From positions 478,160 to 542,159 of the forward strand of contig JAGOAX010000001.1 in the NCBI GenBank assembly GCA_017983695.1: a stretch of 64,000 bases of DNA, read 5' to 3'. The notes beneath the pieces were generated by a model. That model did not search any database. It saw only the letters and a program-made list of their open reading frames with translations, and had not been told where the DNA came from. This stretch comes from Ferruginibacter sp. (lineage in GTDB: Bacteria > Bacteroidota > Bacteroidia > Chitinophagales > Chitinophagaceae). This document shows, piece after piece, positions 31,363-53,575 of the stretch. The first letter of the stretch is position 1. Each line of letters opens with the position of its first letter. The translations under genes and the position numbers were made by a program.

Positions 31363-31382
31363 ATCTCCTGTTTTTAAGGGAT
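31363..31382. promoter_or_regulatory. Shared palindromic element, copy 1
   Basis: ATCTCCTGTTTTTAAGGGAT, an imperfect palindrome, lies between the divergent kinase and secreted-protein genes and 51 nt before the ATG at 31433. It cannot be a terminator, since no gene ends here. Together with copies at 33362, 37061 and 53557 it suggests the site of a shared regulator. Confidence 0.6.
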
Positions 31383-31404
31383 GGTTAATACTGTAACAAC
31401 ACAA

Positions 31405-31412
31405 TAGGTTTG
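31405..31412 (+). promoter_or_regulatory. -7 box of the T9SS cargo gene at 31433
   Basis: TAGGTTTG matches TAnnTTTG exactly and starts 23 nt after the palindromic element's GGGAT end. The palindrome therefore covers or abuts the -33 region, the usual place for an activator. Confidence 0.6.
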
Positions 31413-31432
31413 TTTTTATAAAAAGAAACTTT

Positions 31433-33346
31433 ATGAGACCAACATGTATTTTACTTTTAGTACTCTGCTGTAATTATAGTAATGCACAGTGGAGCAGTAA
31501 CCCTTCTGTAAATAATGCCGTGTGTAATTTTACAGGCAGCCAGACAAATGTACAGCTGGTTGCAGATGGTACCGGCGGTGCCATTACTGTATGGGAAGAT
31601 ACCAGGAATTCTTCTACCGATATTTATGCACAGCGCATCAGTGCAACAGGCACATTGCTTTGGGCGGTCGATGGAGTGCCTTTGTGTACTGCAGCCTTTA
31701 ATCAGGTAAAACCAAAAATAGTAACAGACGGAACAGGTGGTGCTGTTATTGCATGGACTGATGACAGAAATGGTGGCGGTGCAGGTAATTACGATATATA
31801 TGCACAACGTATTAATAGTTCCGGAGTAGTGCAGTGGGGTACAGATGGCGTGGCTGTTTGTACTGCAACCGGCATTCAAAACAACCTGCAAATGTTAGCT
31901 GATAACTCTGGAGCAATGATTGTTTGGAGTGATGGCAGAGGCGGAAGTGCTAATGCCGACATTTATGCACAGCGCCTTAACCAGGTAGGAACACCGTTGT
32001 GGACGATTGATGGTATGTCAGTTTGCAACGCCTCTTCATTACAAAACATGCCACAAATAATAAGTGACGGTGGTGCAGGCAGTGCCATTGTTACATGGGA
32101 AGACTGGAGAAATTTCAGCCAGTCGGATATTTATGCACAGCATATCTCTAACGGATTTACCGACTGGACATTTAATGGGGTGGTCATCTGTTCCGAATCG
32201 AACCTGCAGCACCAGTATAATACCAAAATGGTGGCCGATGGCAGTGGCGGTGCTATTATATGCTGGGAAGATAAAAGAAATGCAGGATCAAATACTGATT
32301 TGTATGCACAGCGTGTAAATACCTCAGGACTTACACAATGGGCCAGTAATGGTATAGCTATTTGTAACGCAAGTGGCATACAATTTACACATCAAATGAT
32401 TGCCAATGCAACTGGCGGTGCCATTATTACCTGGGAAGACAGGAGAACAGGCAGAGATATTTATACGCAGTTTATTAATGCCTCCGGCGTTGCACAATGG
32501 ACAGCTAATGGTATACCGGTTTGTAATACAGCAGACACACAGGAAGAACCGCAACTGGTTGCAAGAACTGCAGGTGGTGCCATCTTTATATGGACAGATT
32601 CAAGAAACAGTTTTCAGCAGGATATTTATGCACAAGGTATTGACGCCGCTGGTACTGCTTTGTGGACTGCCAATGGCGTACCTGTTGCCAATGAAGGAAA
32701 TGCACAATTTGCAGCACAATTACTTACTGATGGTTCAAACGGTGCCATTATTGCGTGGACAGATTTAAGAACAACGCTTAACTACGATATCTATTCGTCG
32801 AAGTTGTTTGCCAACGGCACATTACCACTAAGCATACTTTCTTTTGATGCAGCAGCCGGCAACGGCAATGTCACACTTGCATGGAATACAGAAGATGAAA
32901 TAAATACTTCGCATTTTGATGTGGAGTATTCTACAGATGGAATAATATTTAAAAAACTGGCCACAGTAAAAGCAACCAATTTACCCGGCAAAAACAAATA
33001 TCACTTTGTACATACCGGTGTTACAGACAATATTTTGTTCTATCGTTTAAAACAGTTTGACCTTGATGGAAAAGCTGCCTACAGCAAAACAGAAAAAATA
33101 AATATCAGTAAAGCAACACAGGTAACCGTATACCCCAACCCGGCTGCTGATTTTATCCGTTTAAAAAATATTGACCCGGCTATTATTGCACAGGTCCAAT
33201 TTATAAATTCAGATGGCAGGTTATTGATGACTGTAAAAACAAACAGCATTATGCAGTTTAACATCAGCCATTTAACACCGGGCAGCTACCTGCTTAAAAT
33301 AATTAAGAAAGATAACACCACAGCTGTAATACAATTTTTAAAATAA
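31433..33346 (+). CDS. T9SS-exported protein with seven to eight propeller-like repeats
   Basis: This 637-residue protein has a signal peptide ending in SNAQW, then seven to eight repeats of about 50-58 residues marked by DIYAQRI...G...W..DG..VC and GGAI..W.D.RN. This pattern suggests beta-propeller blades, with a Cys at the end of most units. It continues with a fibronectin-like linker (LSFDAAAGNGNVTLAWNTEDE) and a type A T9SS sorting domain (about 564-637, VYPNPAADFI...GSYLLKI). It should be displayed on the cell surface or released. It is divergent from two-component system 1. Binding partner unknown. Confidence 0.88.
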   Translation: MRPTCILLLVLCCNYSNAQWSSNPSVNNAVCNFTGSQTNVQLVADGTGGAITVWEDTRNSSTDIYAQRISATGTLLWAVDGVPLCTAAFNQVKPKIVTDGTGGAVIAWTDDRNGGGAGNYDIYAQRINSSGVVQWGTDGVAVCTATGIQNNLQMLADNSGAMIVWSDGRGGSANADIYAQRLNQVGTPLWTIDGMSVCNASSLQNMPQIISDGGAGSAIVTWEDWRNFSQSDIYAQHISNGFTDWTFNGVVICSESNLQHQYNTKMVADGSGGAIICWEDKRNAGSNTDLYAQRVNTSGLTQWASNGIAICNASGIQFTHQMIANATGGAIITWEDRRTGRDIYTQFINASGVAQWTANGIPVCNTADTQEEPQLVARTAGGAIFIWTDSRNSFQQDIYAQGIDAAGTALWTANGVPVANEGNAQFAAQLLTDGSNGAIIAWTDLRTTLNYDIYSSKLFANGTLPLSILSFDAAAGNGNVTLAWNTEDEINTSHFDVEYSTDGIIFKKLATVKATNLPGKNKYHFVHTGVTDNILFYRLKQFDLDGKAAYSKTEKINISKATQVTVYPNPAADFIRLKNIDPAIIAQVQFINSDGRLLMTVKTNSIMQFNISHLTPGSYLLKIIKKDNTTAVIQFLK

Positions 33347-33361
33347 TTACGGCGGTTAATA

Positions 33362-33381
33362 AATCCTGTTTTTAAGGGATT
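33362..33381. promoter_or_regulatory. Shared palindromic element, copy 2
   Basis: AATCCTGTTTTTAAGGGATT, 50 nt before the ATG at 33431. A CAAATTTG -7-like box at 33403-33410 lies at exactly the same distance as in copy 1. It is also 15 nt past a stop codon, but there is no T-run after it. Confidence 0.6.
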
Positions 33382-33430
33382 GCTTTCTTTTCTAAAACAA
33401 AACAAATTTGTGTTATTAAAACATACAATT

Positions 33431-34672
33431 ATGAAAAAAATTATTGCAGCATTATTTATGCTTACAGCAACCACTTCATTATTTGCACAGTCTGGCAGAA
33501 TACGTGTTTACTTTGCCGGCTTTGAATGTTACCGGGAAACCTGGGATGATATTCTGCATAGCGATGGTAAAGGCGATGAAATATTTTTCAATTTCAACTT
33601 TACACTTGCCGATAAAAACGGCAACTCCAAACTCAGTTACGAAAAACGTACAGCAGTATATGGTGATGCTACAGGACAGTTTTCAAACCGCATCAGTGCA
33701 GGTAGTTGGGTAGATTTATTTGGCAATAACAGAGGAGGTATAAAAGCAGGCGATACTTACAGTTGTAATGACCTGATTGGCGAGTACGACATGAATGACG
33801 GCGATATACTTACTGCAATTCCAACCGGCTGGGAGCATGACCCCATTGCAGATAATTCACTTGCTTTTACATCAACTATTCGTGGTTTTTACCAAAGCAT
33901 CAATCAAAAAGTAGCACCACTAATGATTGGGTTCAGCATTTTAACAGGCAATATCGGTGGCATCATATATCATTCCGGCAGCCTGGGTTTATCTAAAATT
34001 AAAGCCGGTGGCGACCAGGGTGAATTGGGAAGAGCCGGCACCCGACCTATCGGTATGGAAAAACTGGGGGATTTTTCGCCAAAGCTGGTGGTAATGAATA
34101 CACCTAATTTAGTTACGATCAGTAATAGTAATATGGGATATGGTAAAGGGGTAATTGCAGTTAATTATGATGAAGCTGCTGTTGGTAATTTAAGAGATCA
34201 TGGCAATTATACTATTTTATTAAGAGTTGAATTTATTCCAAACCAAAACACTACTGCGCCACCATCCAATACCAACAATACCACACCACCATCAAAGTCA
34301 AAATCAATGAGCGGTTTTAAAACGATGGGTGGTGTACCGCCAGCAGCTGGTGCTGTTGCAGGTAATTGGGTTGGCACTTATGGCACGGGGCAAAACAATA
34401 CACCAAGTTATTACTCCTTTAAATTAAATGCTGATGGTACCATGCAGGTAGTTGCAGCTAACAACAGCGTTATTGCCAGCGGCACATACAGTTTTTCCAA
34501 TAATCAAATAAATGGAAAATATACGTACAGCAATGGCGGCGTTTTTTCATTTGCTGCAACATTATCGGGCAGCCAGTTAAATGGTACCTGGGGCAGTGGC
34601 ACTAATGTTAGTGGTGGTGGCAAATGGGTAATGAATAAAGTCGCAGTATCGGCCACAGGAAATATCAGGTAA
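33431..34672 (+). CDS. Secreted two-domain protein of unknown function
   Basis: The 413-residue product starts with a signal peptide MKKIIAALFMLTATTSLFAQ. I chose this ATG because the 17-residue upstream extension of the frame is not signal-like. Residues 20-270 form an unrecognised beta-rich domain beginning RIRVYFAGFECYRETWDD. A Thr/Pro/Asn-rich linker (270-300) leads to a lipocalin-like C-terminal domain (about 318-400: GNWVGTYGTG, FKLNADGTMQV, GTYSFSNNQINGKYTY, LNGTWGSG). No T9SS sorting domain is seen, so export is probably to the periplasm or outer membrane. It follows the propeller gene and carries its own regulatory palindrome. Confidence 0.75.
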   Translation: MKKIIAALFMLTATTSLFAQSGRIRVYFAGFECYRETWDDILHSDGKGDEIFFNFNFTLADKNGNSKLSYEKRTAVYGDATGQFSNRISAGSWVDLFGNNRGGIKAGDTYSCNDLIGEYDMNDGDILTAIPTGWEHDPIADNSLAFTSTIRGFYQSINQKVAPLMIGFSILTGNIGGIIYHSGSLGLSKIKAGGDQGELGRAGTRPIGMEKLGDFSPKLVVMNTPNLVTISNSNMGYGKGVIAVNYDEAAVGNLRDHGNYTILLRVEFIPNQNTTAPPSNTNNTTPPSKSKSMSGFKTMGGVPPAAGAVAGNWVGTYGTGQNNTPSYYSFKLNADGTMQVVAANNSVIASGTYSFSNNQINGKYTYSNGGVFSFAATLSGSQLNGTWGSGTNVSGGGKWVMNKVAVSATGNIR

Positions 34673-34764
34673 AACTTAAAGCTTGGTAAAAAAATGATAG
34701 TATTTTTTAAAAACTGGTATTCTTTTTTAAAATGTGGCGATTGGGTTTAATAAATAACTTTTTT

Positions 34765-36993
34765 ATGAAAAAATATATAAGCGCTTTCATTTTCATTCTT
34801 TGTACGGTAGCTGCGTTTTCCCAGACCGGTAAAAAACCTGCCGCAAAAGAAAAACCTCCCACAAAAAAAGAAATGGAGGCGATGATGAAGGATGTGCAAA
34901 AAGCTATGGATGAAATGGATCCTGAAGATAAAAAGATGATGGACAGTATGGGTATTAAAATGCCCTCATTTAAAAATGTACCTAAAGTAAGTGATAAACA
35001 ACTGGCCGATGCCTGGGAAAACGAAAACCGTATTGTACCTAAAAAAGATGCTGACCGTATTGCTGCCATACCAAATGCAGTTACAGATACAAGGATGCCT
35101 GCTTATATAACTGCTGTGCAAAAAAGTGTAACAGCAGTTTTAAAACCAGATGTGGTGACAACAGGTAATAAGGCATACGATTACATAAAATCTATAAGTA
35201 AAAATGCTGACGAGGCTGCTAATATGGCTATAGGTTTCTGGCTGGCCGGCCAGTCGGAAATTGCCTTACATGTTTTAGGAAAAATATGTGCCGGTAATAC
35301 CGATAACCTTAACAACTATGCCGCCATGCTATCCATGCTGGATGCACCGCAACTGGCCATTCCCATTCTTAATAACCTGAATGCAAAATTTCCTAAAAAC
35401 AGCACATTGCTCAATAACCTTGGTCAGGCATGGTTTGGTTTGGGAGAAATTGGTAAAGCCGAAAAATATTTAGACAGTGTTATCCGCATTTATGCATATC
35501 ATCCGCAGGCAAACCTTACCAAGGCTGCTATTGAAGAAAGCAAGGGAAATACTGCTAAAGCAAAAGAGTTAATAAAAAACTCAATGATGCATTCTTATAC
35601 AAAAGACAAAGAAGAAAAACTGGCAAAGTTGGGTGAGAAGACCAGTGCAAAAAATTTTAGATTACCCAGGCGCACAAAAAATGATCCGTTGAATTTGGGA
35701 GGTTTTCAGGCACCGGGTTTCCCATTATCTGTTGAAGAATGCGTACAGGCTGAAAAAGAATGGACTGAATTTTTTAAACAGGTTAACGGTAAGCTTAGTC
35801 AGTTGGGAAAACTAAAAAAACAAGCTGATGAGATGGCTGTACAAGATCAGCAGCAAAGAATGAATGCCGATATTAATTTAGTAAAAACAGCAATGGCCAA
35901 CCCTGGCACCACAGGCAATTTTATATCTGTACCCATGTATGCCGACAGGGCAGGCAAGTTATTAACTGCATACACAGAAATGCATGGAGTTAGAATGAAA
36001 GCCTTTTATAAAAAAGTGACTGACTTTGCACAAGGCGAAGGAAAAAATTTGAAAGATGCTTACGAAAAAGAGATGGAAAAACTGCATGAAGAAGATGATG
36101 AGCAAACAGGCGAAGGAAAACCTAATAAAGATTTTTGCCCTAAGTACAGGGAAACCAGCGATAAGTATTTAAAAGCTGTTAATCCAACACTGCATCAATT
36201 TTACCAGGAGGGCTTGAAACTGCAAAAAGAATTCATCAATGAAAATGCCTACTGGTATATGTATATACAGTGGCCGGCTATGTATGAGGCTACAAAACTC
36301 AGTTTTCAAATGGGCTGGCTGGGTGCTTTAAAACAGGGAATGGGAGAAGGGGACCCTCCTTATTATAATTTTCCCTTTATTTCCATAACACAATATGTAT
36401 GTAAAAAACAAGAAAAAGAACCGGGTAAAACAAAACTGAGGGAGTTTGATGATATAGCCTGCCAGTACAACAGCAAGATTGACTATGAAGTAATAGTAAT
36501 AGAAACTAATTGCAGCCATTCTAAAACAACTTATAACATGGGGCAGGTGAAGATTACAGAAAAAGAACTGGGAGACAAATATATTGGCAGCACTATAAAG
36601 CTAACACCCAAAGTTAGCATTGGCGGCCAGGCGGGGCCAATTAAAATTGAAGGTTCTGTTGGTGCAGATGTTACGATAGAAGTTGATAAAGATAACGAGA
36701 TAAAAGAATGGGGCGGCACGGTTACCACAGGTATAGAAGCTGGTGTGGGTATAAGTAAAGGCCCGGTAAAAGCAGGCGTTACAGTATCAGAAGCGGTGGA
36801 AGTGGAAATAGGCAGTAAAGGTATTGGTGATGTAAATATGATAACAAAGGTTGAAGCTACCGCAGGAGTAAAAGTGGGGCCGGTTGGTAAATCAGTACAA
36901 ATAGGTATGGAAAGCAGAAGCAGTATTGTAAGCGGCCACGGACATATAACAGTTTCGGGCCCGTTAGGCACTGCTAAAGTGGGACAGTGGTAA
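34765..36993 (+). CDS. Secreted TPR-containing protein of unknown function
   Basis: This 742-residue protein starts with a signal peptide ending in AAFSQ. A Lys/Glu/Met-rich coiled stretch (about 25-85) follows, then a helical TPR-like region with a recognisable unit TLLNNLGQAWFGLGEIGKAEKYLDSVIRI-like (shortened) near 220-250. A long helical middle follows, and a Gly/Val-rich C-terminal domain (about 610-742) ending in alternating GPVKAGVTVSEAVEVEIGS-type strands (beta-repeat). No known family recognised. I chose the ATG at 34765 because the in-frame ATG 33 nt upstream precedes a non-signal sequence. No shared palindrome was found upstream. Confidence 0.75.
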   Translation: MKKYISAFIFILCTVAAFSQTGKKPAAKEKPPTKKEMEAMMKDVQKAMDEMDPEDKKMMDSMGIKMPSFKNVPKVSDKQLADAWENENRIVPKKDADRIAAIPNAVTDTRMPAYITAVQKSVTAVLKPDVVTTGNKAYDYIKSISKNADEAANMAIGFWLAGQSEIALHVLGKICAGNTDNLNNYAAMLSMLDAPQLAIPILNNLNAKFPKNSTLLNNLGQAWFGLGEIGKAEKYLDSVIRIYAYHPQANLTKAAIEESKGNTAKAKELIKNSMMHSYTKDKEEKLAKLGEKTSAKNFRLPRRTKNDPLNLGGFQAPGFPLSVEECVQAEKEWTEFFKQVNGKLSQLGKLKKQADEMAVQDQQQRMNADINLVKTAMANPGTTGNFISVPMYADRAGKLLTAYTEMHGVRMKAFYKKVTDFAQGEGKNLKDAYEKEMEKLHEEDDEQTGEGKPNKDFCPKYRETSDKYLKAVNPTLHQFYQEGLKLQKEFINENAYWYMYIQWPAMYEATKLSFQMGWLGALKQGMGEGDPPYYNFPFISITQYVCKKQEKEPGKTKLREFDDIACQYNSKIDYEVIVIETNCSHSKTTYNMGQVKITEKELGDKYIGSTIKLTPKVSIGGQAGPIKIEGSVGADVTIEVDKDNEIKEWGGTVTTGIEAGVGISKGPVKAGVTVSEAVEVEIGSKGIGDVNMITKVEATAGVKVGPVGKSVQIGMESRSSIVSGHGHITVSGPLGTAKVGQW

Positions 36994-37060: not shown

Positions 37061-37080
37061 AATCCTGTTTTTACAGGATT
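37061..37080. promoter_or_regulatory. Shared palindromic element, copy 3
   Basis: AATCCTGTTTTTACAGGATT is a perfect palindrome (7-bp arms, 6-nt centre) 105 nt before the OmpA-domain gene. CATCTTTA (37102-37109), a partial -7 match, falls at the same spacing as in copies 1 and 2. Confidence 0.55.
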
Positions 37081-37184
37081 GCTAAGCCCCTGCAGCAATT
37101 GCATCTTTATACCGTAAATAATAACACCCATTTATTGTACCGCAGTTTTAAAAAGATTTTTTTAAAATTATAAATCATAACAAA

Positions 37185-39083
37185 ATGAAAATTTTTATCA
37201 CGTTCATCCTGGTTTTGTTTTCAATTACCAACTTACAGGCACAGCTGTTAAAAAAAATAAAACAAAAAGCCGAACAGGCTGCCGGCAAAGTATTAGATAA
37301 AGCTGATGAAAAAAAGCAAAGCGGGGATGTTGAAAACAAAGACACTCCTGCTGCAGAAAACGGCAAGACAGATGAAACAAAACCAGGTGGCGGCACAACC
37401 AACCTTAAAGTGTACAGCAAATTTGATTTTGTACCCGGCAGCACTATCCTGTATTTCGACAATTTTGAAAAAGATGATATCGGTGAATCGCCATTAGGAT
37501 GGATCACTTCTTCATCGGCAGAAGTGGTTACTATTGATGAACTGGAAGGAAAATGGTTAAAAATGGCAGCAACCAGTACTAAACAAATCAGCCGTAATAA
37601 AAAGCAAAGCTGGGGGAATAATTTTACTGTAGAATTTGACTTGCTGATTGTAAAAAACACCTACGACCCACGGATAAGTTTTTCATTAATGAATACAAGC
37701 GGCAGTTTGGTTACTGATGAAAAAATATTACAAACAGGAAAACATGCAGTGTATGTATCAACCATTCTTGGTGATGGTGGTAGCAAAACCAGGCTATCGC
37801 TTTATAGCAATAATAACATCAACAGTGCAGTCTCTGATAAGATGTCCGAGAGCCTTCCTTACAATAACACAACGCCGGTACATGTCAGCATTTGTGTGCA
37901 GGGTAAACGGTTCAGGTTTTGGTGGAATGAAAAAAAATTATTCGACCTGCAAACAGTAAATGAAGAATATATGCCCAACCAGTTTGGGTTTGATTTTGGC
38001 AGTGTGGGTGGCTCTGATTTTTATGTAAGCAATATTCGTGTGGCTAAAGATATTCCTGATACCCGTGCAAAGTTTGAAGAAGGAAAAATAATAAGCAACT
38101 TATTATTTTATACCGGCAAAGCCACGCTGAGGCCCGAAAGTATGGGAGCCCTGCTTGATATTAGTAAAGTGTTGAAAGAAGTTACTATGCCCGTAAAAAT
38201 TATTGGGCATACAGACAGTGATGGTGATGATGCCGCTAATCAAAAACTTTCTCAGCAAAGAGCCGAAGCTGTTAAAACCATACTTGTAAATCAGTACAGT
38301 GTTGATGAAAGTAAATTTTCTACCGAAGGCCGTGGCGAAACACAACCAATAGCCGACAATAAAAATGCTGAAGGCAAAGCACAGAACCGGAGAGTGGAAT
38401 TTATATTTAAAGCCGAGGCGGATGTATATGTAAAACCTGCAGGCATCAGTAACGAAAACATAAAAACGGCAGCTAATAATAAACCCGCCGTTAATAACAG
38501 TAATAAGCCAGGCACTAATGCAGATGCTGCAGCAACGGTAACCTTGCAAAGTAAAATTCTCAATATCAGTTTACCCTATGCACAATTCATGAAGACATCA
38601 GAAAACACTTTCACCTTTAGTGCAGGCAAAGAAGAAGGGAATAACAAAGAAAATTATTTTAAGATAGATCTCACTTCTGTAAATACACGTTTAAAAGCTG
38701 AGACCTACAACTTCAGGGAAATAAATGAAAAGAATCCGCTTTATGGTACAAAAAAATTTTCTGAAATTAAAAACACCGAAGCAATGTTGTATTATGGCAC
38801 CGCTAAAAAACCATACATCTATAAATTTTCTCCCATTATTGGTAATGGCCACATGGCAACTTTTGTAAGCGAATCTTTATTGAGAAAACTACCGCCTGTA
38901 TCACCTAATTGCAAACTCGTTATTGAAAAAGTGGAAGATGGCAAAGCAAGCGGATACTTCTTAATGGGTATTATGATACAAGGCCTTAAAGGCGTTACAA
39001 AAGGCGATGCCATGCAGGAAACTTTCACAGATGGTTTTTCCGGCGAAATGAAATGCACTTTTACTAATGTGCCGGTGTATTAA
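37185..39083 (+). CDS. Secreted protein with LamG-like and OmpA (peptidoglycan-binding) domains
   Basis: The 632-residue protein has a signal peptide ending in LQAQ, a Lys/Glu-rich helix (20-65) and a concanavalin/LamG-like beta domain (about 80-290: YFDNFEKDDIGESPLGW, NFTVEFDLLIV, FGFDFGSVGGSDFYVSNIRV). An OmpA C-terminal domain (about 300-410) follows, with LLFYTGKATLRPES, KIIGHTDSDGDD and GEGRGETQP-like EGRGETQ plus NRRVEF, which grips peptidoglycan. A unique last 170 residues complete it. It probably links the outer membrane to the wall. The LamG-like domain recurs in the protein at 55353. Confidence 0.85.
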   Translation: MKIFITFILVLFSITNLQAQLLKKIKQKAEQAAGKVLDKADEKKQSGDVENKDTPAAENGKTDETKPGGGTTNLKVYSKFDFVPGSTILYFDNFEKDDIGESPLGWITSSSAEVVTIDELEGKWLKMAATSTKQISRNKKQSWGNNFTVEFDLLIVKNTYDPRISFSLMNTSGSLVTDEKILQTGKHAVYVSTILGDGGSKTRLSLYSNNNINSAVSDKMSESLPYNNTTPVHVSICVQGKRFRFWWNEKKLFDLQTVNEEYMPNQFGFDFGSVGGSDFYVSNIRVAKDIPDTRAKFEEGKIISNLLFYTGKATLRPESMGALLDISKVLKEVTMPVKIIGHTDSDGDDAANQKLSQQRAEAVKTILVNQYSVDESKFSTEGRGETQPIADNKNAEGKAQNRRVEFIFKAEADVYVKPAGISNENIKTAANNKPAVNNSNKPGTNADAAATVTLQSKILNISLPYAQFMKTSENTFTFSAGKEEGNNKENYFKIDLTSVNTRLKAETYNFREINEKNPLYGTKKFSEIKNTEAMLYYGTAKKPYIYKFSPIIGNGHMATFVSESLLRKLPPVSPNCKLVIEKVEDGKASGYFLMGIMIQGLKGVTKGDAMQETFTDGFSGEMKCTFTNVPVY

Positions 39084-39124
39084 AGTTTACGGGGGCCGGT
39101 TTGAAAAAACATAAAACAAATAAA

Positions 39125-40570
39125 ATGAAACTTAAATTTTTGCGCTTGTTAAAAACAATTATACTTGCCGCAAGTATTCTACTGGCTGCTGTAAATATAA
39201 ATGCACAAAAAAAATTAGTTCCTGTTTCGCAATCTACACTAACAGGTATTGCATTGCCTGCAGGCAGTAAACAAGATGGCAGGTTTTTAATGGAACTAGC
39301 GGGCAAAGCACTTTTAGAAATGGAAACTAAAAAAGCTAATACCACGGTTACAAAAACAGAAGTATTTTATGTACCGGCAACTGCTACCGGTGCAGACCCT
39401 GATTCAATTGTGCAGCAACTTACGACTTTGGGATGGAGTATTATTCCTATACAGGGTGACGATAAATTTGTTTGGCTGCAAAAAGACAACCGTTATATCA
39501 TTACCTATTTTTCGCTAAATAAAAAAGATAACGACCTGTATTTTGGTGAAGTTGCCAATGCTCCTGCAAGTGGGAATAACAACACCGTTCAAAATACAAG
39601 TAATAACAGCCAGCAGAATATACAGCAAACAGATCCTCAGCAAAACAATTCACAACAACCCAATCTGCAACAAAATGGACAACAACAACCCGATCCTCAA
39701 CAGGTAGTACAAAATATTTCAAACACAATAGCCAAACAGGATGGCTTTGCATTTACGACAACAAATTTTGATGATGGCTGGACAAGTGTTGTAAAGGAAG
39801 ATTGGGTGGAAACAACAAAAGGGAATATAAAAGTGCTGATACATTATCCCAATAAAAAAGCAGATGAGTACAATACTGTATTACTTGATGGATTAAAAAA
39901 TGCTTGGAATATATTGGTGGCTCCAAGATACAGCTCGGCCAGCAACTTTGAATCTAAACCATTACAAAGCTGGCAATCGATTGAGTTTGCAGAAGCAGAT
40001 ATGGTGGAAAATACTACCGGCAAAACAGTACATGTGGTATTATTCAAAAAAAACTTTAGTGGTGGTGGCGGAAAATTTATTGAATTTATAACTGCAAATA
40101 AAAATACTTTTGAACAGGAATTTGGCGCTTACATTAATGAAGCCTCCGCACCAGGCTGGGATAAAATGGCGGCTTTAGCAAACTATAACAAATTTGCTGT
40201 TGGCGCATCTGATCTTATTGGTAAATGGACCACCAATTTTACTGGCATGACGCAATATGTAAATGCTTATACAGGCGCAAGTGCCGGAGCAGATACACAT
40301 GCTTCTAACGAAAGTTTTGTATTTGCAGTAGACAATACTTACAAATGGGATTTAGGTGTAGCCAGTGGCTTTGTGGGCAATATTAAATTTCAAAGTGCAA
40401 AAGCAGCAGGCACCTGGTCACTGTTAAATAACTGGCAGGTACATTTTTCCGAAATTGAAAAAAAGGCAAAAACATACAACGCTTTTTTCTCCTGCATTAA
40501 AGGTGCAAGAATATTATGGTTGCAGGATACCGGTTACGGGAGTTACAACAGCTTTGGAAAAGCAGAATAA
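39125..40570 (+). CDS. Secreted tandem paralogue A with Gln/Asn-rich linker
   Basis: The 481-residue product has a signal peptide ending NINAQKK. A conserved N-domain of about 120 residues follows (KLVPVSQS, MELAGKALLEMETKKANTT, DDKFVWLQKDNRYIITY), then a Gln/Asn/Pro-rich linker of about 45 residues (QQNIQQTDPQQNNSQQ-like). A C-terminal domain follows (KQDGFAFTTTNFDDGW, NAWNILVAPRYS, WQVHFSEIE, ACIKGARILWLQD-like CIKGARIL). Function not recognised. The start ATG at 39125 opens the signal peptide. Gene B begins 13 nt downstream and is nearly identical in the N-domain but not in the C-domain. Confidence 0.75.
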   Translation: MKLKFLRLLKTIILAASILLAAVNINAQKKLVPVSQSTLTGIALPAGSKQDGRFLMELAGKALLEMETKKANTTVTKTEVFYVPATATGADPDSIVQQLTTLGWSIIPIQGDDKFVWLQKDNRYIITYFSLNKKDNDLYFGEVANAPASGNNNTVQNTSNNSQQNIQQTDPQQNNSQQPNLQQNGQQQPDPQQVVQNISNTIAKQDGFAFTTTNFDDGWTSVVKEDWVETTKGNIKVLIHYPNKKADEYNTVLLDGLKNAWNILVAPRYSSASNFESKPLQSWQSIEFAEADMVENTTGKTVHVVLFKKNFSGGGGKFIEFITANKNTFEQEFGAYINEASAPGWDKMAALANYNKFAVGASDLIGKWTTNFTGMTQYVNAYTGASAGADTHASNESFVFAVDNTYKWDLGVASGFVGNIKFQSAKAAGTWSLLNNWQVHFSEIEKKAKTYNAFFSCIKGARILWLQDTGYGSYNSFGKAE

Positions 40571-40582
40571 AAAATAAAGAAT

Positions 40583-42046
40583 ATGAAAGTAAAATTTTTG
40601 CAACAGTTAAAATCAATCATACTTGCTGCAGTTGTAATGCTGACAGGTATAAATATAAATGCACAAAAAAAATTAGTTCCTGTTTCGCAATCTTCACTAA
40701 CAGGTATTGCGTTACCGGCAGGCAGTAAACAGGATAGCAGGTTTTTAATGGAACTGTCTGGCAAAGCGCTTTTAGAAATGGAAACTAAAAAAGCGAATAC
40801 TACTGTTACAAAAACAGAGGTGTTTTATTTACCAGCAACAGCTGCCGGTGCTGACCCTGATTCAATTGTACAGCAACTTACGGCTTTGGGCTGGAGTATT
40901 ATTCCAATACAGGGTGATGATAAATTTGTATGGCTGCAAAAAGATAACCGCTATATCATTACTTATTTTTCATTAAACAAAAAAGATAACGACCTGTATT
41001 TTGGCGAAGTTGCCAATGCCCCGGCAAATAGTACAAATGGAAATAACAACACCGTTCAAAACACCAATAACAACAGCCAGCAGAATACACAGCAAACCGA
41101 TCCGCAGCAAAACAATTCACAACAGTCCGATCCTCAACAAAACGGACAACAACAGTCCTATCCACAACAGGCGGCAGTACAAAATGTTTCAAACACAATA
41201 GCCAAACAGGATGGCTTTGCATTTACCACAACAAATTTTGATGATGGCTGGACAAGTGTTTTTCAGGAGGATTGGGTGGAAGTAACAAAAGGAAATATTA
41301 AAGTGTTGTTGCATTATCCAAAAGAGGGCACTATTTTCCCGGCAGACCCAGATCCTCTTACTACTGCTGCATGGAATATTTTAGTGGCACCACGTTACAG
41401 CAATTTAAAGAATTATAAAACTGCTTATATCACCACTTATAACCGGCCTTATTTAGGGATGGGATACGCAACAGAAAACAGTAGTGGCAAAGAAGTGTTT
41501 GTTGTATTATTCCGGCAGGGAGAGACCGGCTGGCTGGAATTTGTTGCGCCGGATAAATATAGTTTTATCCAGCAATATAAATTTGACCCGGAAACCATCC
41601 GCTGGGATAGTGAGAGCGACCTGATGAAACCGCTTGCAAACATGACGGGGTATAACAAATTTGCTGTTGCTGCGGCTGACTTTAAAGGAAAATGGAGCAG
41701 CGATTTTACCGGCATACAGCAGCTTTACAATGTTTATACCGGCAACTATGCCGGTATGCAGATGAACCAGTCGAACGAGGATTTTATTTTTGGTAACGAC
41801 GGAGCCTACAGCTGGAAACTGCTGGTGGTAAATGGCATGGCAGGCAATGCAAAATTTACCGAAGTAAAATCATCCGGCAAATTCACTGTAGTCAATAACT
41901 GGCAGATTCACTGTTCAAAAATAGAAAGCGGCCCTAAAACCTATAACGCATTCTGGTCCTGCATAAAAGGAGCAAGGATATTGCACCTGCAGGATGCTGA
42001 CTACCCCGGATCGGGAATGTATACACGGTATGGATTAGCAAAATAA
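40583..42046 (+). CDS. Secreted tandem paralogue B with Gln/Asn-rich linker
   Basis: This 487-residue paralogue of the preceding gene has the same order: signal peptide (NINAQKK), N-domain differing from A at about seven of 120 residues, Gln/Asn/Ser-rich linker (about 50 residues) and a C-domain. Only about half of the C-domain positions agree, apart from shared blocks such as KQDGFAFTTTNFDDGW, AWNILVAPRY and YNAF.SCIKGARIL. The contrast suggests recent duplication or gene conversion of the front half with divergence of the back half. No enzymatic motif seen. Confidence 0.75.
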   Translation: MKVKFLQQLKSIILAAVVMLTGININAQKKLVPVSQSSLTGIALPAGSKQDSRFLMELSGKALLEMETKKANTTVTKTEVFYLPATAAGADPDSIVQQLTALGWSIIPIQGDDKFVWLQKDNRYIITYFSLNKKDNDLYFGEVANAPANSTNGNNNTVQNTNNNSQQNTQQTDPQQNNSQQSDPQQNGQQQSYPQQAAVQNVSNTIAKQDGFAFTTTNFDDGWTSVFQEDWVEVTKGNIKVLLHYPKEGTIFPADPDPLTTAAWNILVAPRYSNLKNYKTAYITTYNRPYLGMGYATENSSGKEVFVVLFRQGETGWLEFVAPDKYSFIQQYKFDPETIRWDSESDLMKPLANMTGYNKFAVAAADFKGKWSSDFTGIQQLYNVYTGNYAGMQMNQSNEDFIFGNDGAYSWKLLVVNGMAGNAKFTEVKSSGKFTVVNNWQIHCSKIESGPKTYNAFWSCIKGARILHLQDADYPGSGMYTRYGLAK

Positions 42047-42263: not shown

Positions 42264-43715
42264 TTACATTTTCCTAATCTTCCCCGGCGATTTTTCATAC
42301 AACCGTTCTTCACTAAACACTAAATTTCCAATACGTTCAAATGTAAATGTTTGCACAGGCTCATAAGCACCATCAGCATAAGCCGGGTTTTTAAGTACAA
42401 AAGCTTCTCCATTGTTTTTACCAGTGAGATTTGGTAACCCTATAGGTGAATTAGAATTTTTATTTCGTATCGTCCACCCTGCCTGCGAGCCTTCGTTCTC
42501 TTTTTTATATACCAGTTGCCATTTTACATTATCCTGGTTTGCATAATCCCATTGAATAATAGCAGTACCATCATTTTTTAATTGACCCGCTGCATTAATG
42601 TATTTACCACTGTGTGCTGCACTGATAACATAAATACCCTCGGCAATTATTTTTACATAAAATTTATGGTTGGGTTGATCTACAAAATCCCATTGTACCA
42701 ATCTTGCACCATTATCTTTACTAATACCTTCAATGGCAAGATACTTACCAGTTTGATTTACTTTTATTTTATACAAGCCATTTTCTACAGGAGTTGCACT
42801 AATTGCAGTAAGTTTACTAACACTGGTTGATTTAATTACATTCTGATTTTCGACTTTTCTCATCATAAAATCTTTGTAGTCCGTTCGTGGTAATACAGCA
42901 TTGTAAAAGTAGCTGCTATTTATACCTTCAATATCTTTACCGCTTAAGTTAGATCCTCCTAAAACACAATCAGAAATCTGGTTGCCATTTTTACAACGGA
43001 TAGTCTGATCGCTCTTCTTTATTGCAAACGCATTTGCCTCATAATGCATCACAGAAGTGTAATCATAAGCTGTGGTAAGCACACCTGGTTCTATTTGAAA
43101 AGCATACCTCCAAACAGCAATAGCCTTTGATGTATCTATCACTACATAAGTATCCCTGTCGTAGCGGTTTTGCTCATGATAAAAACCAAAGCTGTGCATC
43201 ATTTCGTGAAGAAAAGTAGAAAGGTCGGATCGATTGGTTATCCAAATAACCTGCTCACCTCCCACCCTTCCTATCGGCGATAGACCACCATAAGTTGTAT
43301 CCGGAGAAAATTTAATATTGATAAAATCTTTCTGGCCATTGTAATCTACCAGTCGTAAATTGGTTTGAGTGTTGAAAATGCTAATGGCCCTTAAGGCAAG
43401 TTGCCGAAGATTTTCTTTATTAAAAAAGGTACTATTTGTGGTAAGACTTGCATCCAGTTTAATGGCAATTTCTCCTTTGGGCCAGATGTATCTGTCTTTA
43501 TCATTGTTTTGATACAGCATTGTTTTTTGCAGTGTGTTACCAACAATAATATCGCTGTTTAACACATAGTCGGTGCCTATCTGTTTTACAAAATATGATT
43601 TTGCTTCGCCACTCATTGGCAGTTGAAATGTTTTTTGCAGATACTCATTTTGCGTATGAGCAGTAACCATTAAAAAAAGGATAGCAAAAATGGATAAAGT
43701 TAATGGTTTGATCAT
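42264..43715 (-). CDS. Secreted astacin-family zinc protease with ricin-type lectin tail
   Basis: The 483-residue product has a signal peptide (MIKPLTLSIFAILFLMVTAH) and an astacin catalytic domain. The signature H-E-x-x-H-x-x-G-F-x-H-E-x-x-R-x-D-R-D lies at about 170-188 (HEMMHSFGFYHEQNRYDRD) and the Met-turn SVMHY at 221-225. A ricin-type beta-trefoil follows (about 300-440; GKYLAIEG, ARLVQWD, GKYINAAG, AIIQWDYANQDNVKWQL). It should cut protein substrates outside the cell, with the lectin part holding glycans. The ATG at 43715 begins the signal peptide. It is last in a tight three-gene operon. Confidence 0.93.
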   Translation of the reverse strand: MIKPLTLSIFAILFLMVTAHTQNEYLQKTFQLPMSGEAKSYFVKQIGTDYVLNSDIIVGNTLQKTMLYQNNDKDRYIWPKGEIAIKLDASLTTNSTFFNKENLRQLALRAISIFNTQTNLRLVDYNGQKDFINIKFSPDTTYGGLSPIGRVGGEQVIWITNRSDLSTFLHEMMHSFGFYHEQNRYDRDTYVVIDTSKAIAVWRYAFQIEPGVLTTAYDYTSVMHYEANAFAIKKSDQTIRCKNGNQISDCVLGGSNLSGKDIEGINSSYFYNAVLPRTDYKDFMMRKVENQNVIKSTSVSKLTAISATPVENGLYKIKVNQTGKYLAIEGISKDNGARLVQWDFVDQPNHKFYVKIIAEGIYVISAAHSGKYINAAGQLKNDGTAIIQWDYANQDNVKWQLVYKKENEGSQAGWTIRNKNSNSPIGLPNLTGKNNGEAFVLKNPAYADGAYEPVQTFTFERIGNLVFSEERLYEKSPGKIRKM

Positions 43716-43716
43716 T

Positions 43717-48173: not shown

Positions 48174-48890
48174 GTGATAACAAAAAAAATCACTTGCATG
48201 GTGGTAGATGACGATGATATCGACCGCCTTACCACCTTATCGTTTTTAAGCGACTATCCTTTTATGGAAGTGATTGGCGCATTTGATTCGCCTGTAGCAG
48301 CATTGGCAGCAGCACAACAGCAATTACCGGATGTATTATTCTTAGATATTGATATGCCCCAAATGAGCGGACTGGAGCTGAGAAAACAATTGCTGCATGT
48401 ACCGGCCTGCATCTTCATCACTTCCTATCCGGATTATGCAGTGGAAAGTTTTGAAATGGCAGCATTAGATTTTTTAGTAAAACCTTTTACAGCAGAACGA
48501 TTTTTAAAAACTATGAACAGGCTGGAACAATTTGCCGACATTCATCATAAAGCCAGTTTACTTAGCCACAACCTGGGTGCCGATACTATATTTATAAAAG
48601 ATGGATACGACCAGGTAAAACTGCAACTGCATGAAATAATTTATTTAGAAGCATTGAAAGATTATACGGGCATTATTACTGCCGACAGGAAATACGCAGT
48701 TCTATCGCCATTAGGCAACCTGATAAAAGAAAAGGCCTTTGGTAGTTTTATCCGCATCCACCGCAGTTATGCAATACAAAAACATTTTATTAAAAAAATA
48801 AGTTCGGGAGAAGTTATGGTGAACGATATTGTGTTGCCCGTGGGAAGAAGTTTTAAAGATGCATTAAAGGGATTAACAGTTAATTTATGA
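48174..48890 (+). CDS. LytTR-family response regulator (system 2)
   Basis: This 238-residue regulator starts at GTG (48174), giving MITKKITCMVVDDDD; an ATG eight codons later would cut into strand 1. The receiver has VDDDD, phospho-acceptor D58 (LFLDID), FITSYPD and LVKPF. A LytTR DNA-binding domain follows (about 140-238; IFIKDGYDQVKLQLHEIIYLEA, FIRIHRSYAIQKHFI). It overlaps the HisKA kinase gene by 4 nt (ATGA), so the pair is coupled. Confidence 0.95.
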   Translation: MITKKITCMVVDDDDIDRLTTLSFLSDYPFMEVIGAFDSPVAALAAAQQQLPDVLFLDIDMPQMSGLELRKQLLHVPACIFITSYPDYAVESFEMAALDFLVKPFTAERFLKTMNRLEQFADIHHKASLLSHNLGADTIFIKDGYDQVKLQLHEIIYLEALKDYTGIITADRKYAVLSPLGNLIKEKAFGSFIRIHRSYAIQKHFIKKISSGEVMVNDIVLPVGRSFKDALKGLTVNL

Positions 48891-50905
48891 AGCAAATTTT
48901 TGCACTGATCATTTGCCTGTCTGCTTTAAAAAGCTATTCACAAAAACATGGCGAAGCATTAATCGACTCTTTAAAAAAGGAAATACCCATTACAAAAACA
49001 GACAGTTCAAAAACCAGGTTGTACCTGCGGATCTCTGATGTATATATTGATATAGACCTGAACAAAGCAATGTCCTTTGCCGACAGCGGAGCTGTACTTG
49101 CCCAAAAGATCAAATGGGAAGATGGCATTGCCAGCAGCCAGCTAAACTATGGTAACGTGTATAATTTTATGGGCGAACATAATAAAGCTGCTGAAAATGT
49201 ACAGCAGGCCTACCTGTTCTATTTAAAAAAAGGAGATAAAAAAAGTATCGGCACTGCCGTATACACCCTTGGCGTATCAAACGAAAGGCTCGGCAATTAC
49301 GCTGTTGCTGCCGAAAAATATTTTGAGGCATTACATATTTTTGAAAAGCTGCCCGGTGCCGACAGGCTTACCGGCAACAGTTTATCTGCCATTGCCGTGA
49401 TATATTTTTTACAACGGGATTATACCAAATCGCTTGACTATAGTTTTAAGGCATTAGCCAAACAGGAAGCAGCCAAAAATATCATGGGTATTGCCAATGA
49501 ATATGTAGCTATTGCCGACACGTATAATGAATTACACGATTCAGCAAATGCCATCAGGTATAATTTACAGGCGCTGGAAATGGAGAAAAAAATGGACAGC
49601 AAGTTTGGCGAAGCGGTCATTTATTTTCAATTGGGGAAACTCTATCATAATAATTATGGCCTTGCACTGGACTATCATCTTAAAGCGGAAAAATTATTTA
49701 CACAATTAAACGACAATTCAAACTTTGCAAGCTTTAACCGGGGCGAGATAGGTCGCATATTTTTTGCCATTGCAAAACAAACGGGTATTGTAACAATGCT
49801 CCCATCATCTTTGCAAATACCAAATGATAAAAACACACTGTTGCAGCTGGCAGAAAAATATTTGCAAACATCAGTAACTGTAAGCAGGGAAACAGGTGAT
49901 AAGGATAACGAGTCATCACTTTCTGCAAGCCTGGCCGAACTACAGGCTTACAAAGGCGATTACAAAAATGCGTATCTGAATTTCAGGGTTTTTCATAAAA
50001 CACAGGATTCCATCTATTCGCAACAAAACAAGAACAGGATTGCAACGTTAGAAAGCCAGAAAGAGATCGATCTTAAAAACAAAACCATTGAAAATAAAGA
50101 ACTGGAATTAAGCAACCAGCAAAAAAAAGTGTGGTTGCTGGTTACCGGCATTGCATTTCTTATCATCACAGGAAGTTTATTTTACTATCAAAGCCGTAGC
50201 CGAAAAAAAACAAATACTGCTTTGCTGCAACTGAACAGCGAACTAGACGAAGCCAATAAAGTAAAAGCAAAATTTTTCGGTATCCTTAGTCATGACCTAA
50301 GAAGCCCAGTTGCCAACCTCATCAATTTTTTACAACTCCAAAAAAGAAACCCGGGCATACTGTCTGAACAGGATATTGACGAAAGGGAAAAGAAGATATC
50401 CAATTCTGCATCGTCATTGCTGGAAACTATGGAAGGTATGTTATTGTGGAGCAAGGGCCAGATGGAGCAATTTAAACCGGAAGTAACAACTGTACCTGCA
50501 AGCAAATTATTTAGTTATTTACAAAAAAACTTTGCTGATACCCCAAACGTAACTTTTAATTTTATTAATGATAGCGATGTGTATATGAATACCGATCCAG
50601 ATTATTTACAAACCATTATGCAAAACCTTACTGCCAATGCAATTAAGGCTTTACATCAAACTTCAGCCGCACAAATAACATGGAAGGCATGGCAACAAAA
50701 CAGTACCATTTATTTGTCCATTACCGATAACGGACCAGGCATCAGCAACGAACAGGCAAAATCACTATTTGATGAAACTCATATTACCGGCACCAGGCAC
50801 GGATTGGGTTTGCATATTATACGAGACCTTGCCAAAGCTATTTCCTGCTCCATCAATATTGCTACAGATAGTAGACAGGGTACAACATTTGTTTTGGCAC
50901 TGTAA
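48887..50905 (+). CDS. TPR-containing sensor histidine kinase, HisKA type (system 2)
   Basis: This 672-residue kinase has a signal peptide (MKQIFALIICLSALKSYSQ), five or more TPR units (85-370; YGNVYNFMGEHNKAAE, NYAVAAEKYFEAL, YNELHDSANAIRY) and a transmembrane helix at 414-434. A coiled coil and HisKA H-box FFGILSHDLRSPVANL (H469) follow. The HATPase part has NLTANAIKAL, ITDNGPGIS and HGLGLHII. The H-box differs from the HisKA_3 type of systems 1 and 3. It is coupled to the LytTR regulator upstream. Ligand unknown. Confidence 0.95.
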   Translation: MKQIFALIICLSALKSYSQKHGEALIDSLKKEIPITKTDSSKTRLYLRISDVYIDIDLNKAMSFADSGAVLAQKIKWEDGIASSQLNYGNVYNFMGEHNKAAENVQQAYLFYLKKGDKKSIGTAVYTLGVSNERLGNYAVAAEKYFEALHIFEKLPGADRLTGNSLSAIAVIYFLQRDYTKSLDYSFKALAKQEAAKNIMGIANEYVAIADTYNELHDSANAIRYNLQALEMEKKMDSKFGEAVIYFQLGKLYHNNYGLALDYHLKAEKLFTQLNDNSNFASFNRGEIGRIFFAIAKQTGIVTMLPSSLQIPNDKNTLLQLAEKYLQTSVTVSRETGDKDNESSLSASLAELQAYKGDYKNAYLNFRVFHKTQDSIYSQQNKNRIATLESQKEIDLKNKTIENKELELSNQQKKVWLLVTGIAFLIITGSLFYYQSRSRKKTNTALLQLNSELDEANKVKAKFFGILSHDLRSPVANLINFLQLQKRNPGILSEQDIDEREKKISNSASSLLETMEGMLLWSKGQMEQFKPEVTTVPASKLFSYLQKNFADTPNVTFNFINDSDVYMNTDPDYLQTIMQNLTANAIKALHQTSAAQITWKAWQQNSTIYLSITDNGPGISNEQAKSLFDETHITGTRHGLGLHIIRDLAKAISCSINIATDSRQGTTFVLAL

Positions 50906-50955
50906 GATCATCTGTGCCGGATGTATTTAATCTGCCGCTTAGCGAACGGATTATT

Positions 50956-51579
50956 TTATACAAAATTGTACTTTGCTGCCATTTTTATTAAGCTGGCGGT
51001 ATTGTTTACAGCAAATTTTGTGAGAATATTTTTACGGTGACTATCCACCGTATGCATGCTTAAAAACAGTTTGGCTGCAATCTGCGGATTGGTCATACCA
51101 TCAGCAATTAATTGCAACACTTCTTTTTCTCTGCTGCTCAGTACTGGAATATTATTTAGCTCCAGTTTATCAGATGAAGAAAGATTAATATCGAGGCTCA
51201 TGTATAGTTTTCCCTCATACACACTCAATATCGCTTCTTCAATTTCTTCTTTGGAGGTACTTTTAACCAGGTAACCCGAAGCGCCGTTTTGTATCATTTG
51301 CGAAATATAGCTCCGCTCTTTAAAAGTACTCATGGCAATTATTTTTACCTGAGGAAATTCTTTTTTTATTTTCAAGCTTAATTCTATACCATTTATTTCA
51401 GGCATGTTAATATCGGTAATTACTATATCAGGGATAGTTAATTTAATATGCTCTATTGCCTCATAGGCATTATTTACTGTACCGGCAACTGTTACAAATG
51501 TTATTTGCTGCAACATAGAACGCATCCCTTCCAATACCATCGGGTGATCATCAACAACCAATACTTTTATTTTATCCAT
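50956..51579 (-). CDS. LuxR/NarL-family response regulator (system 3)
   Basis: This 207-residue protein has a receiver domain with VVDDH, phospho-acceptor D56 (VITDINMP), AMSTF and LVKSTSK, then the LuxR-type HTH LSSREKEVLQLIADGMTNPQIAAKLFLS. It is a paralogue of the regulator at 28689. It sits 4 nt after the kinase gene at 51584. The divergent gene at 53649 encodes an RCC1-repeat T9SS cargo, so a role in controlling that gene is plausible (inference). Confidence 0.96.
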   Translation of the reverse strand: MDKIKVLVVDDHPMVLEGMRSMLQQITFVTVAGTVNNAYEAIEHIKLTIPDIVITDINMPEINGIELSLKIKKEFPQVKIIAMSTFKERSYISQMIQNGASGYLVKSTSKEEIEEAILSVYEGKLYMSLDINLSSSDKLELNNIPVLSSREKEVLQLIADGMTNPQIAAKLFLSMHTVDSHRKNILTKFAVNNTASLIKMAAKYNFV

Positions 51580-51583
51580 TGCT

Positions 51584-53524
51584 TTAAATTATACAATCAA
51601 TATGTATGGATGTACCATTACCGGGTGTTGATTTTATATCCAGTTGTCCTTTTAAATAATCAACCCTTGATTGAATATTATTTAAACCGGTCCCTTTCAT
51701 CAGTAGCACTTCTTCCCTGTTAAAACCTTTACCGTTATCTTCTACAGTAATGGTAAGATTATTATCATGCTTCATCACCTGTACTAAAATAATTGCAGCA
51801 CCGGAATGTTTCACTGCATTATTCAGCAACTCCTGTACAATACGGTACACTACAATTTCAACTGATGATTCCATTCTTTTTTCTAGGCCATAAAACTCAC
51901 CATTTATTTTAAACGATTGCGATTCCGATAATCCATCGCAATAATCCTGCAAAGCCTGCTGCAATCCTAATTTCATTAATGCTTCGGGCATCATGTTATG
52001 TGCCACCCTGCGCATTTCGCTTATGGATTCATCTAATTTGCCCAGCGCATTATTAAATGTACGGCCATGCTCTTCCGATAAAATTAAATTTCCTTTCATA
52101 GCTCCTAATTGAAGTTTAACGCCACTCAGCAATCCGCCAAGGCCATCATGCAGGTCTTGTGCCAGCCTGCTTCTTTCATCTTCCTGGCCTTTTAAAATAG
52201 ATTGTGTGGCAAGTAATAATTTTTCTTTTTCCAAGTCAGCAATTTGCTGTTGTTGCAGTTTCCTTTTTTGAGTATAGGTACGGTAAGAAAGAAATGAAAT
52301 CAACAGCAATGCTGCAACGCTGCCGCCAAGTATGTAATTAATAATGTTTTTTTTGTTGATAGACGCCGCTTGTAATGTAAGCTGTTGTTCTTTTTTTTCA
52401 GTTTCATATTTCTTTTCAATGTCAAGCACTATTTTTTTTGTATCATCGCTTTGAATGGAATCATTTGCTGCATAATACTTTTTATGGCTTTCAAGGGCTT
52501 TTTGATAATTACCAGTTTCTTCATAAAAATCAGTCAATAAGTTATAGCCCGATTTTTGAAAAACAGTGAACCCATTTTCATCTGCCAGCTTAACGCCTTT
52601 CAGTAAAAACTCTTCTGCCTCTTTTTGTTTACCCAATTTCATGTACGCATTACCCATCATAAATAACGGCTCTGTCATTCCCCATTTGTTATTATTTTCT
52701 TTTGTGATATTGTACACTTTACTGAAATAAAAAATGGAACTGTCGTATTTTGAAAGTCCATCAAACGCCTGTGCCCTTGTTAAATAATGAAGCTGCACTC
52801 TTGTTACATCCATATTGTTGGCAAAGTATGTTCGGGCAGAATCTGAATAAAGTAGCGCCACTTTATAATCGCTGGCACCAGCATAAAATTGAGATACCAT
52901 AGCGTATGCTCCAAAAAGGTTATAGTCCCGCCCGGTTATTTTAGCAGCTTTCAAACTTTTAAGTATGTATTCTTTTTGTTTATCCTTTAATTTTAAAATT
53001 TCGTAAACACTGGAAAGGTTTGAATATAAGCTTACCGACCATTCATAGTTTTTTTCTTTTTCCAATACTTCAATGCCTTTCAAATACCAGGTTGCTGCCG
53101 AATCATACATTCCCCATCTATAAAACACAGAAGCTTTATCATTCATTACCATAGCCAAAGTAAGTTTCGCTTTTGGGTTTTTTGCACGGGATAAAAAAAA
53201 TATTGCTTTGTTCATATCTCCCAAATGCTCTTCTTTTTTGCCCTTGGCAAAGTCTGAATACATGCTGTTGTGTAAAGCAGCACCCAGCGGATAATCTAAT
53301 TTTTTCTGCGTGGCATATTCAATGGCCTCCTGATAGAATTGCTTAGATTTTGCAGTGTCTACTACTTCATAATACCGGCCCCCGTTTACCAATGCAATAG
53401 CTCTGACACTATCTGGTATTTCTGTTTTTAACAGTTTTTCTATACTATCAACCAAATGCTGTTGTGCACTAAGCTGCAAAGCAACAGTAAGCACGGCTGG
53501 TAACAGAAAAAATTTGTTCCTCAT
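51584..53524 (-). CDS. TPR-containing sensor histidine kinase, HisKA_3 type (system 3)
   Basis: This 646-residue paralogue of the system 1 kinase has a signal peptide ending in SAQQ and TPR units (about 45-350; YRWGMYDSAATWYLKG, GLSKYDSSIFYFSKV, AYMKLGKQKEAEEFL). A membrane helix (394-413) and the HisKA_3 H-box LAQDLHDGLGG (H459) follow. The ATPase part has ELLNNAVKHSG, VEDNGKGFN and GTGLNNIQSR. It overlaps or abuts nothing upstream; 124 nt separate it from the divergent T9SS cargo. That spacer holds palindromic element copy 4. Confidence 0.95.
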   Translation of the reverse strand: MRNKFFLLPAVLTVALQLSAQQHLVDSIEKLLKTEIPDSVRAIALVNGGRYYEVVDTAKSKQFYQEAIEYATQKKLDYPLGAALHNSMYSDFAKGKKEEHLGDMNKAIFFLSRAKNPKAKLTLAMVMNDKASVFYRWGMYDSAATWYLKGIEVLEKEKNYEWSVSLYSNLSSVYEILKLKDKQKEYILKSLKAAKITGRDYNLFGAYAMVSQFYAGASDYKVALLYSDSARTYFANNMDVTRVQLHYLTRAQAFDGLSKYDSSIFYFSKVYNITKENNNKWGMTEPLFMMGNAYMKLGKQKEAEEFLLKGVKLADENGFTVFQKSGYNLLTDFYEETGNYQKALESHKKYYAANDSIQSDDTKKIVLDIEKKYETEKKEQQLTLQAASINKKNIINYILGGSVAALLLISFLSYRTYTQKRKLQQQQIADLEKEKLLLATQSILKGQEDERSRLAQDLHDGLGGLLSGVKLQLGAMKGNLILSEEHGRTFNNALGKLDESISEMRRVAHNMMPEALMKLGLQQALQDYCDGLSESQSFKINGEFYGLEKRMESSVEIVVYRIVQELLNNAVKHSGAAIILVQVMKHDNNLTITVEDNGKGFNREEVLLMKGTGLNNIQSRVDYLKGQLDIKSTPGNGTSIHIDCII

Positions 53525-53556
53525 ATTACAAAAGTGATAAAAAAAAAGTAAATACC

Positions 53557-53575
53557 AATCCCCTGTTCGGGGGAT
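53557..53575. promoter_or_regulatory. Shared palindromic element, copy 4
   Basis: AATCCCCTGTTCGGGGGAT forms ATCCCC/GGGGAT arms around TGTTCG. It lies in the spacer between the system 3 kinase and the RCC1 cargo gene, 74 nt before its ATG. No gene ends nearby, so it is not a terminator. Unlike copies 1-3 no -7 box sits at the shared spacing. Confidence 0.5.

Follow-up and report, generated by a model that had tools for sequence, protein, structure and literature searches.

A palindromic DNA element that recurs upstream of secreted-protein genes in a 64,000-nucleotide (nt) stretch of a 4.48 Mb Ferruginibacter sp. genome (the window, whose positions are used throughout) is very probably the operator of the neighbouring response regulator RR1, which would be a class-II-type activator for a regulon of secreted proteins and would also regulate its own operon. 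RR1 (28689..29306, minus strand) combines a receiver and a LuxR/GerE helix-turn-helix in one protein (Pfam Response_reg, 8.9e-26; GerE, 3.9e-19), with the recognition helix TVDTHRKNLL. It adjoins HK1 (29306..31294, minus strand), a sensor kinase with TPR, HisKA_3 and HATPase_c domains, the true start of which is likely at about 31267, giving a signal peptide. Four observations carry the assignment: the layout of palindrome and promoter, the statistics of this layout, its co-occurrence with RR1, and the covariation of its letters with the RR1 recognition helix.

Three copies on the plus strand, brought into register, form one element, AATCCYGTTTTTANRGGATT. Operator 1 (TCTCCTGTTTTTAAGGGATG, 31364..31383) lies 5' of the gene at 31433, operator 2 (AATCCTGTTTTTAAGGGATT, 33362..33381) 5' of the gene at 33431, and operator 3 (AATCCTGTTTTTACAGGATT, 37061..37080), a perfect 7-6-7 palindrome, 5' of the gene at 37185. 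In all three, exactly 21 nt separate the palindrome from a YANNTTTR (-7) box on the same strand: TAGGTTTG (31405..31412), CAAATTTG (33403..33410) and CATCTTTA (37102..37109), respectively. The original prediction for this DNA had described one recurrent palindrome at four places, the first at 31363-31382 (one base off), with the same distance to the -7 box in the first two sites, a box at that spacing in the third, and two copies between divergent genes. The distances and the divergent arrangement proved right, and all four palindromes exist, each 5' of a gene with an N-terminal signal peptide. The description as a single element holds for three of them and fails for the site at 53557, which has a different core.

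At up to three mismatches, the 20-mer was found four times in the window, once inside a coding region (6737), against 0.01 expected from shuffled windows; the loose pattern ATCCY-N7-RGGAT showed no excess over chance there. In a genome-wide motif scan, a check of the kind that the original prediction had proposed, the composite of palindrome, spacer and YANNTTTR has four exact matches in the whole source genome, all preceding signal-peptide genes, and none with one mismatch. The fourth exact match, at C32:175377, lies before a gene for a secreted protein that, by eye, is similar in its C-terminal part to a family found behind such sites elsewhere. Relaxing the composite to three or fewer mismatches gave 29 matches versus 14 for a reversed control pattern, so that only the exact matches stand out, and matches to the bare palindrome at two to three mismatches fell mostly within genes. 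A site at C32:379550, before a VOC-type-looking gene, was set aside as doubtful, having a broken arm and 20-nt spacing.

The same spacing emerged from a scan that ignored the letters of the palindrome. Across 41 RR1-type regulator loci, 20-bp palindromes with a T-rich centre and outside long open reading frames (ORFs) were paired with YANNTTTR boxes at distances from 8 to 44, yielding 23 pairs at 21 nt and 7 at 20 nt, whereas the remaining spacings averaged 1.0. The scan was repeated on 80 loci of another collection, which ranges over Chitinophagaceae, Pedobacter, Cytophagales and Flavobacteriia and has some contigs in common with the first; this second set gave 27 pairs at 21 nt versus a mean of 2.2. 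A further peak at 26 nt in the second set was discarded, since it consists mostly of the 21-nt sites in shifted register and arises because an A-tract precedes the palindrome.

Among class-II activator sites, the lux box lies near -42.5 and the CRP site near -41.5. Taking the Bacteroidota -7 box as -12 to -5 (PMC9723704), the RR1 palindrome covers about -53 to -34, with its centre at about -43.5, immediately 5' of the core promoter. Alignments of 41 and 34 sites contain no conserved -33 box and only a preferred G at -33. They also contain an A-tract at -56 to -54 that is conserved, though unused in site selection; positions used for choosing the sites look invariant by construction. This layout, in which an operator is fixed beside the -33/-35 region of a promoter with a poor intrinsic -33 element, agrees with class-II activation of a weak core promoter. 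The activator site overlapping -33 that had been predicted thus lies next to -33, which it abuts and does not overlap. The proposed RR1 promoters differ from the known class-II promoters in carrying the Bacteroidota -7 box.

The sites and the regulator occur together across the genus. Among 93 Ferruginibacter genomes, the ATCC-type composite (counted at one mismatch or fewer) is present in 23 of the 34 that encode an RR1 relative at E 1e-60 or better and in 2 of the 59 that do not (p 1.7e-11); reversed-pattern controls gave 0 composites. When genomes were grouped by hand, those with acidic-helix RR1 relatives at about 69% identity or more had the composite in 18 of 19 cases versus 7 of 74 others (p 1.1e-12); because the genomes are related, these p-values overstate independence. 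Of the 8 genomes that encode an Asn-helix regulator, 7 contain the ATCAT-type composite described below, which is found in 0 of the other 85 (p 8e-10). One genome carries the same operator and flank twice on different contigs (G066:C157:113624 and G066:C161:260599), one copy being near a contig end, perhaps reflecting a duplicated or mis-assembled region.

The letters of the site change with the recognition helix of the regulator. Three versions of the palindrome were distinguished: version A, AATCCYGTTTTTANRGGATT, paired with helix TV[D/E]THRKN; version B, AATCATCTTTTTTAATGATT, paired with TVNTHRKS; and version C, AATCACTGTTTCGGGTGATG with a 20-nt spacer, paired with a distant TVDSHRKN clade. 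In a table of 68 regulators with A or B sites, an acidic helix (Asp/Glu) goes with A (ATCC...GGAT) in 44 of 44 cases and an Asn helix with B (ATCAT...ATGAT) in 23 of 24; beyond this table, the ATCACTG variant goes with four acidic-helix regulators from a distant clade. Because TVETHRKS regulators have A, it is helix position three and not position eight that varies with the site. This position aligns with Lys of TVKTH in VraR, and contacts of Asp/Glu to cytosine and of Asn to adenine are chemically ordinary. Three genomes (G018, G044 and G055) each contain the two types of regulator together with the two types of site, and in G018 and G044 each site type lies near its own regulator. The TPR protein and KIWRINN families follow A sites where the local regulator has an acidic helix, and B sites where it has an Asn helix. 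At locus L207 (G050:C37), ATACC...GGTAT palindromes occur near an RR1 relative with the helix TVHTYRKILL and may represent a further specificity.

A further site, absent from the original prediction, faces the HK1-RR1 operon. The proposed autoregulatory operator, AATCATGGAAAAAGGGGAGC (31328..31347, minus strand), is followed after 21 nt by a -7-like box, TTAATTTG (31299..31306, minus strand). The element AATCATGGAAAAAGGGGA (31347-31330, opposite strand, between HK1 and the gene at 31433) is almost letter-perfect in 27 related loci, and its distance to the -7-like box is 21 nt in 20 loci and 20 nt in 6 (26 of 27 loci). This box, 5' of the kinase gene, is mostly T[TA]NNTTTG. The element goes with the kinase promoter, because several of the 27 loci have no divergent operator. 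Three Asn-helix loci have AATCATTAAAAANGATGAN at the autoregulatory position, so that here too the letters follow the helix. These features suggest that RR1 regulates its own operon.

In the mechanism that we propose, a dimer of activated RR1 would read two ATCCYG half-sites flanking a T-tract and contact RNA polymerase from about -43.5, and transcription would start at promoters with a -7 box and without a recognisable -33 box. The targets would be secreted or surface proteins, and through the variant operator in the opposite direction the HK1-RR1 operon would be autoregulated. Paralogous regulators would use the same layout with other half-site letters, with RR2 (50956) using a pair of sites at 53557 and 53581. 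We infer that RR1 binds these sites directly, that it activates and does not repress, that it regulates its own operon and that phosphorylation plays a part; binding of the inverted repeat by an RR1 dimer is suggested by site symmetry and covariation. LuxR-type regulators had been named as possible readers in the original prediction, a proposal that gains support from RR1 co-occurrence, the 21-nt spacing and helix covariation.

It is very unlikely that the palindromes are instead read by an unlinked dimeric regulator, for example of the CRP/FNR family, with RR1 a mere neighbour. CRP/FNR-family sites have a 5-6-5 layout, and TCCTG-N6-CAGGA matches the half-site spacing of a CRP-type site; however, the sites occur where RR1 occurs, and their letters change with RR1's own helix, also in genomes with two RR1-type regulators. 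We consider it very unlikely that RR1 binds and mainly represses by blocking polymerase at -33, as a protein bound to a palindrome abutting that region could do. The 20-21 nt fixed spacing, the lack of a conserved -33 box and the off-consensus -7 boxes (CATNTTTA, TACTTTTA) suit an activator-dependent promoter, and FimR, a response regulator with a TPR kinase partner in another member of the Bacteroidota, activates (PMC1974823). Fixed spacing to the -7 box, near the usual -33/-7 distance, could also mean that the conserved block is part of a promoter read by an alternative sigma factor, an explanation made highly improbable by the symmetry of the site, the near-housekeeping -7 boxes and the covariation with a response regulator helix. 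We give almost no credence to transcription terminators or RNA hairpins, which inverted repeats with a T-run might bring to mind. A GC-rich stem followed by a T-run is not found in operators 1-3, where the T-run lies inside the loop, not after the stem, and none directly follows the palindrome. Moreover, several sites lie between divergent genes and 5' of predicted starts, the spacing to the -7 box is fixed, and the palindromes match no RNA family in Rfam.

Several findings weigh against assigning the palindrome to RR1 as an activator operator. The outer arms of operator 1 are poor (TCTCC...GGATG), the Asn-helix locus L260 scored ATCC-type, 14 standard-helix regulators have no classified site in the DNA stretch examined, and two RR1-lacking genomes have one 1-mismatch composite each. 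When the helix columns were left out of the tree, the Asn regulators formed one supported clade and one isolated case (L258), so that the change from Asp to Asn amounts to one or two events in evolution, and the covariation gives at most two independent comparisons and carries no formal phylogenetic significance.

The fourth palindrome of the original prediction, AATCCCCTGTTCGGGGGAT (53557..53575, plus strand), differs in its core from operators 1-3 and has no -7 box 20-21 nt away on the plus strand. Alignment of three genomes places it as the distal member of a tandem common to all of them, AATC(C/A)C(C/G)TGTTCNGGGGAT at 53557 (first base T in G049) followed by AAACAGGTGTTCNGGTGAT at 53581. 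Fixed spacing at this locus belongs to the promoter-proximal member (in the window AAACAGGTGTTCAGGTGATT, 53581..53600, plus strand; kept in G049 and G053). There AAACAGGTGTTCNGGTGAT is followed after 20 nt by AATTTTTG (53621..53628, plus strand), a near -7 box invariant across the three genomes, and then by the proposed target gene (53649..55304, plus strand), encoding a secreted RCC1-repeat protein with a type IX secretion system (T9SS) sorting domain. By position, the 53557 palindrome would go with RR2 and not RR1, an assignment weaker than that of operators 1-3 to RR1 and drawn from three aligned genomes. RR2 (50956..51579, minus strand), the proposed reader of the 53557/53581 pair, is a response regulator paralogous to RR1 (about 46% identity), with the helix TVDSHRKNIL and with Response_reg (4.8e-28) and GerE (3.5e-20) in one protein. 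It adjoins its own TPR sensor kinase, HK2 (51584..53524, minus strand), which also has HisKA_3 and HATPase_c. An arrangement in which 53557 faces HK2 on the minus strand was dropped, as the alignment of the three genomes spoke rather for a tandem directed towards 53649.

Proteins encoded behind the operators are predominantly predicted to be exported: a home-made rule assigns a signal-peptide-like start to 88 of the 98 downstream proteins versus 689 of all 1401 ORFs at these loci, a comparison set that includes spurious ORFs. In the window, all on the plus strand, operator 1 precedes a secreted protein with a T9SS C-terminal sorting domain (31433..33346), and operator 2 a secreted protein of 413 aa (33431..34672) that belongs to no Pfam or NCBIfam family and has homologues recurring at RR1-type loci. 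A TPR protein of 753 aa (34732..36993), encoded 60 nt further on and possibly in one operon with the latter, has homologues elsewhere directly behind such operators. Operator 3 precedes a secreted OmpA-family protein (37185..39083), whose orthologue in G016 (L077/L133) has the same site. Likely co-transcribed with it are the genes for two paralogous proteins (39101..42046) of 489 aa (39101-40570) and 487 aa (40583-42046), homologues of which occur at many RR1-type loci. This paralogous family matches no Pfam or NCBIfam model, and a fold search found nothing at E 0.001 or below; by structure, part of it is weakly like PsbP/DcrB-like proteins (E about 0.02). Representatives of several recurrent downstream families gave no Pfam match. 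Secreted proteins were also seen behind ATCAT-type operators (L269:2593-3252:-, L270:18111-18761:-, L267:7213-7830:- and L189:9346-9996:+), each with a Sec-type signal peptide and no Pfam match. For one ATCAT-type downstream protein, the predicted structure has the fold of Hcp, the tube protein of type VI secretion (Foldseek E 1.9e-6); confidence in this model is modest (mean predicted local distance difference test score, pLDDT, 59), and its best structural matches are nearly all Hcp. This predicted Hcp-fold secreted protein, found in Asn-type loci, may be the most telling member of the regulon. Elsewhere in the window, a LytTR regulator and TPR kinase pair (48174-50905) lies between the RR1 and RR2 systems, giving three TPR-kinase pairs inside about 25 kb, and two proteins with ricin-B-like lectin domains, one also with an astacin protease domain, are encoded at 42264-45348.

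With its receiver and GerE/LuxR helix-turn-helix (Pfam), RR1 resembles NarL/FixJ-type regulators (NarL, VraR, DosR/DevR, UhpA), of which VraR, DevR and NarL are its best relatives of solved structure. It differs from them in its site, an ATCCYG half-site with a T-tract core, and in its targets and sensor domain, and NCBIfam equivalog cut-offs are not reached. The closest studied relative found is FimR of Porphyromonas gingivalis, which activates surface-structure genes by direct promoter binding (PMC1974823) and is partnered by FimS, a kinase with periplasmic TPR repeats (PMC11053733). Both systems are from Bacteroidota and pair a TPR kinase with a response regulator, and the FimS model NF053520 gives a weak match to HK1 over its N-terminal half (E 1.5e-8). 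However, HK1 scores 33.4 bits against a FimS cut-off of 600, and the RR1 targets are not fimbriae. Our literature searches turned up neither a FimR operator sequence for comparison nor a description of this type of operator or regulator, and no operator published for such a pairing of TPR kinase and LuxR-type regulator in Bacteroidota.

As a tentative extension, one helix position (Asp/Glu versus Asn) might constitute a code by which C or A is read at base four of ATCC/ATCA half-sites, and might have rewired a whole secreted-protein regulon in Bacteroidota, operators and autoregulatory site together. The Asn-type regulon member with a predicted Hcp fold would then hint at an undescribed extracellular apparatus. 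The operator, the spacing rule, the autoregulatory copy and the candidate specificity residue were all derived from DNA and its translations. Pairs of a TPR kinase and a LuxR-type regulator are common in the genomes searched, and their targets would become predictable. The system would also be a naturally occurring case in which a regulator and its numerous sites have changed their letters in step.

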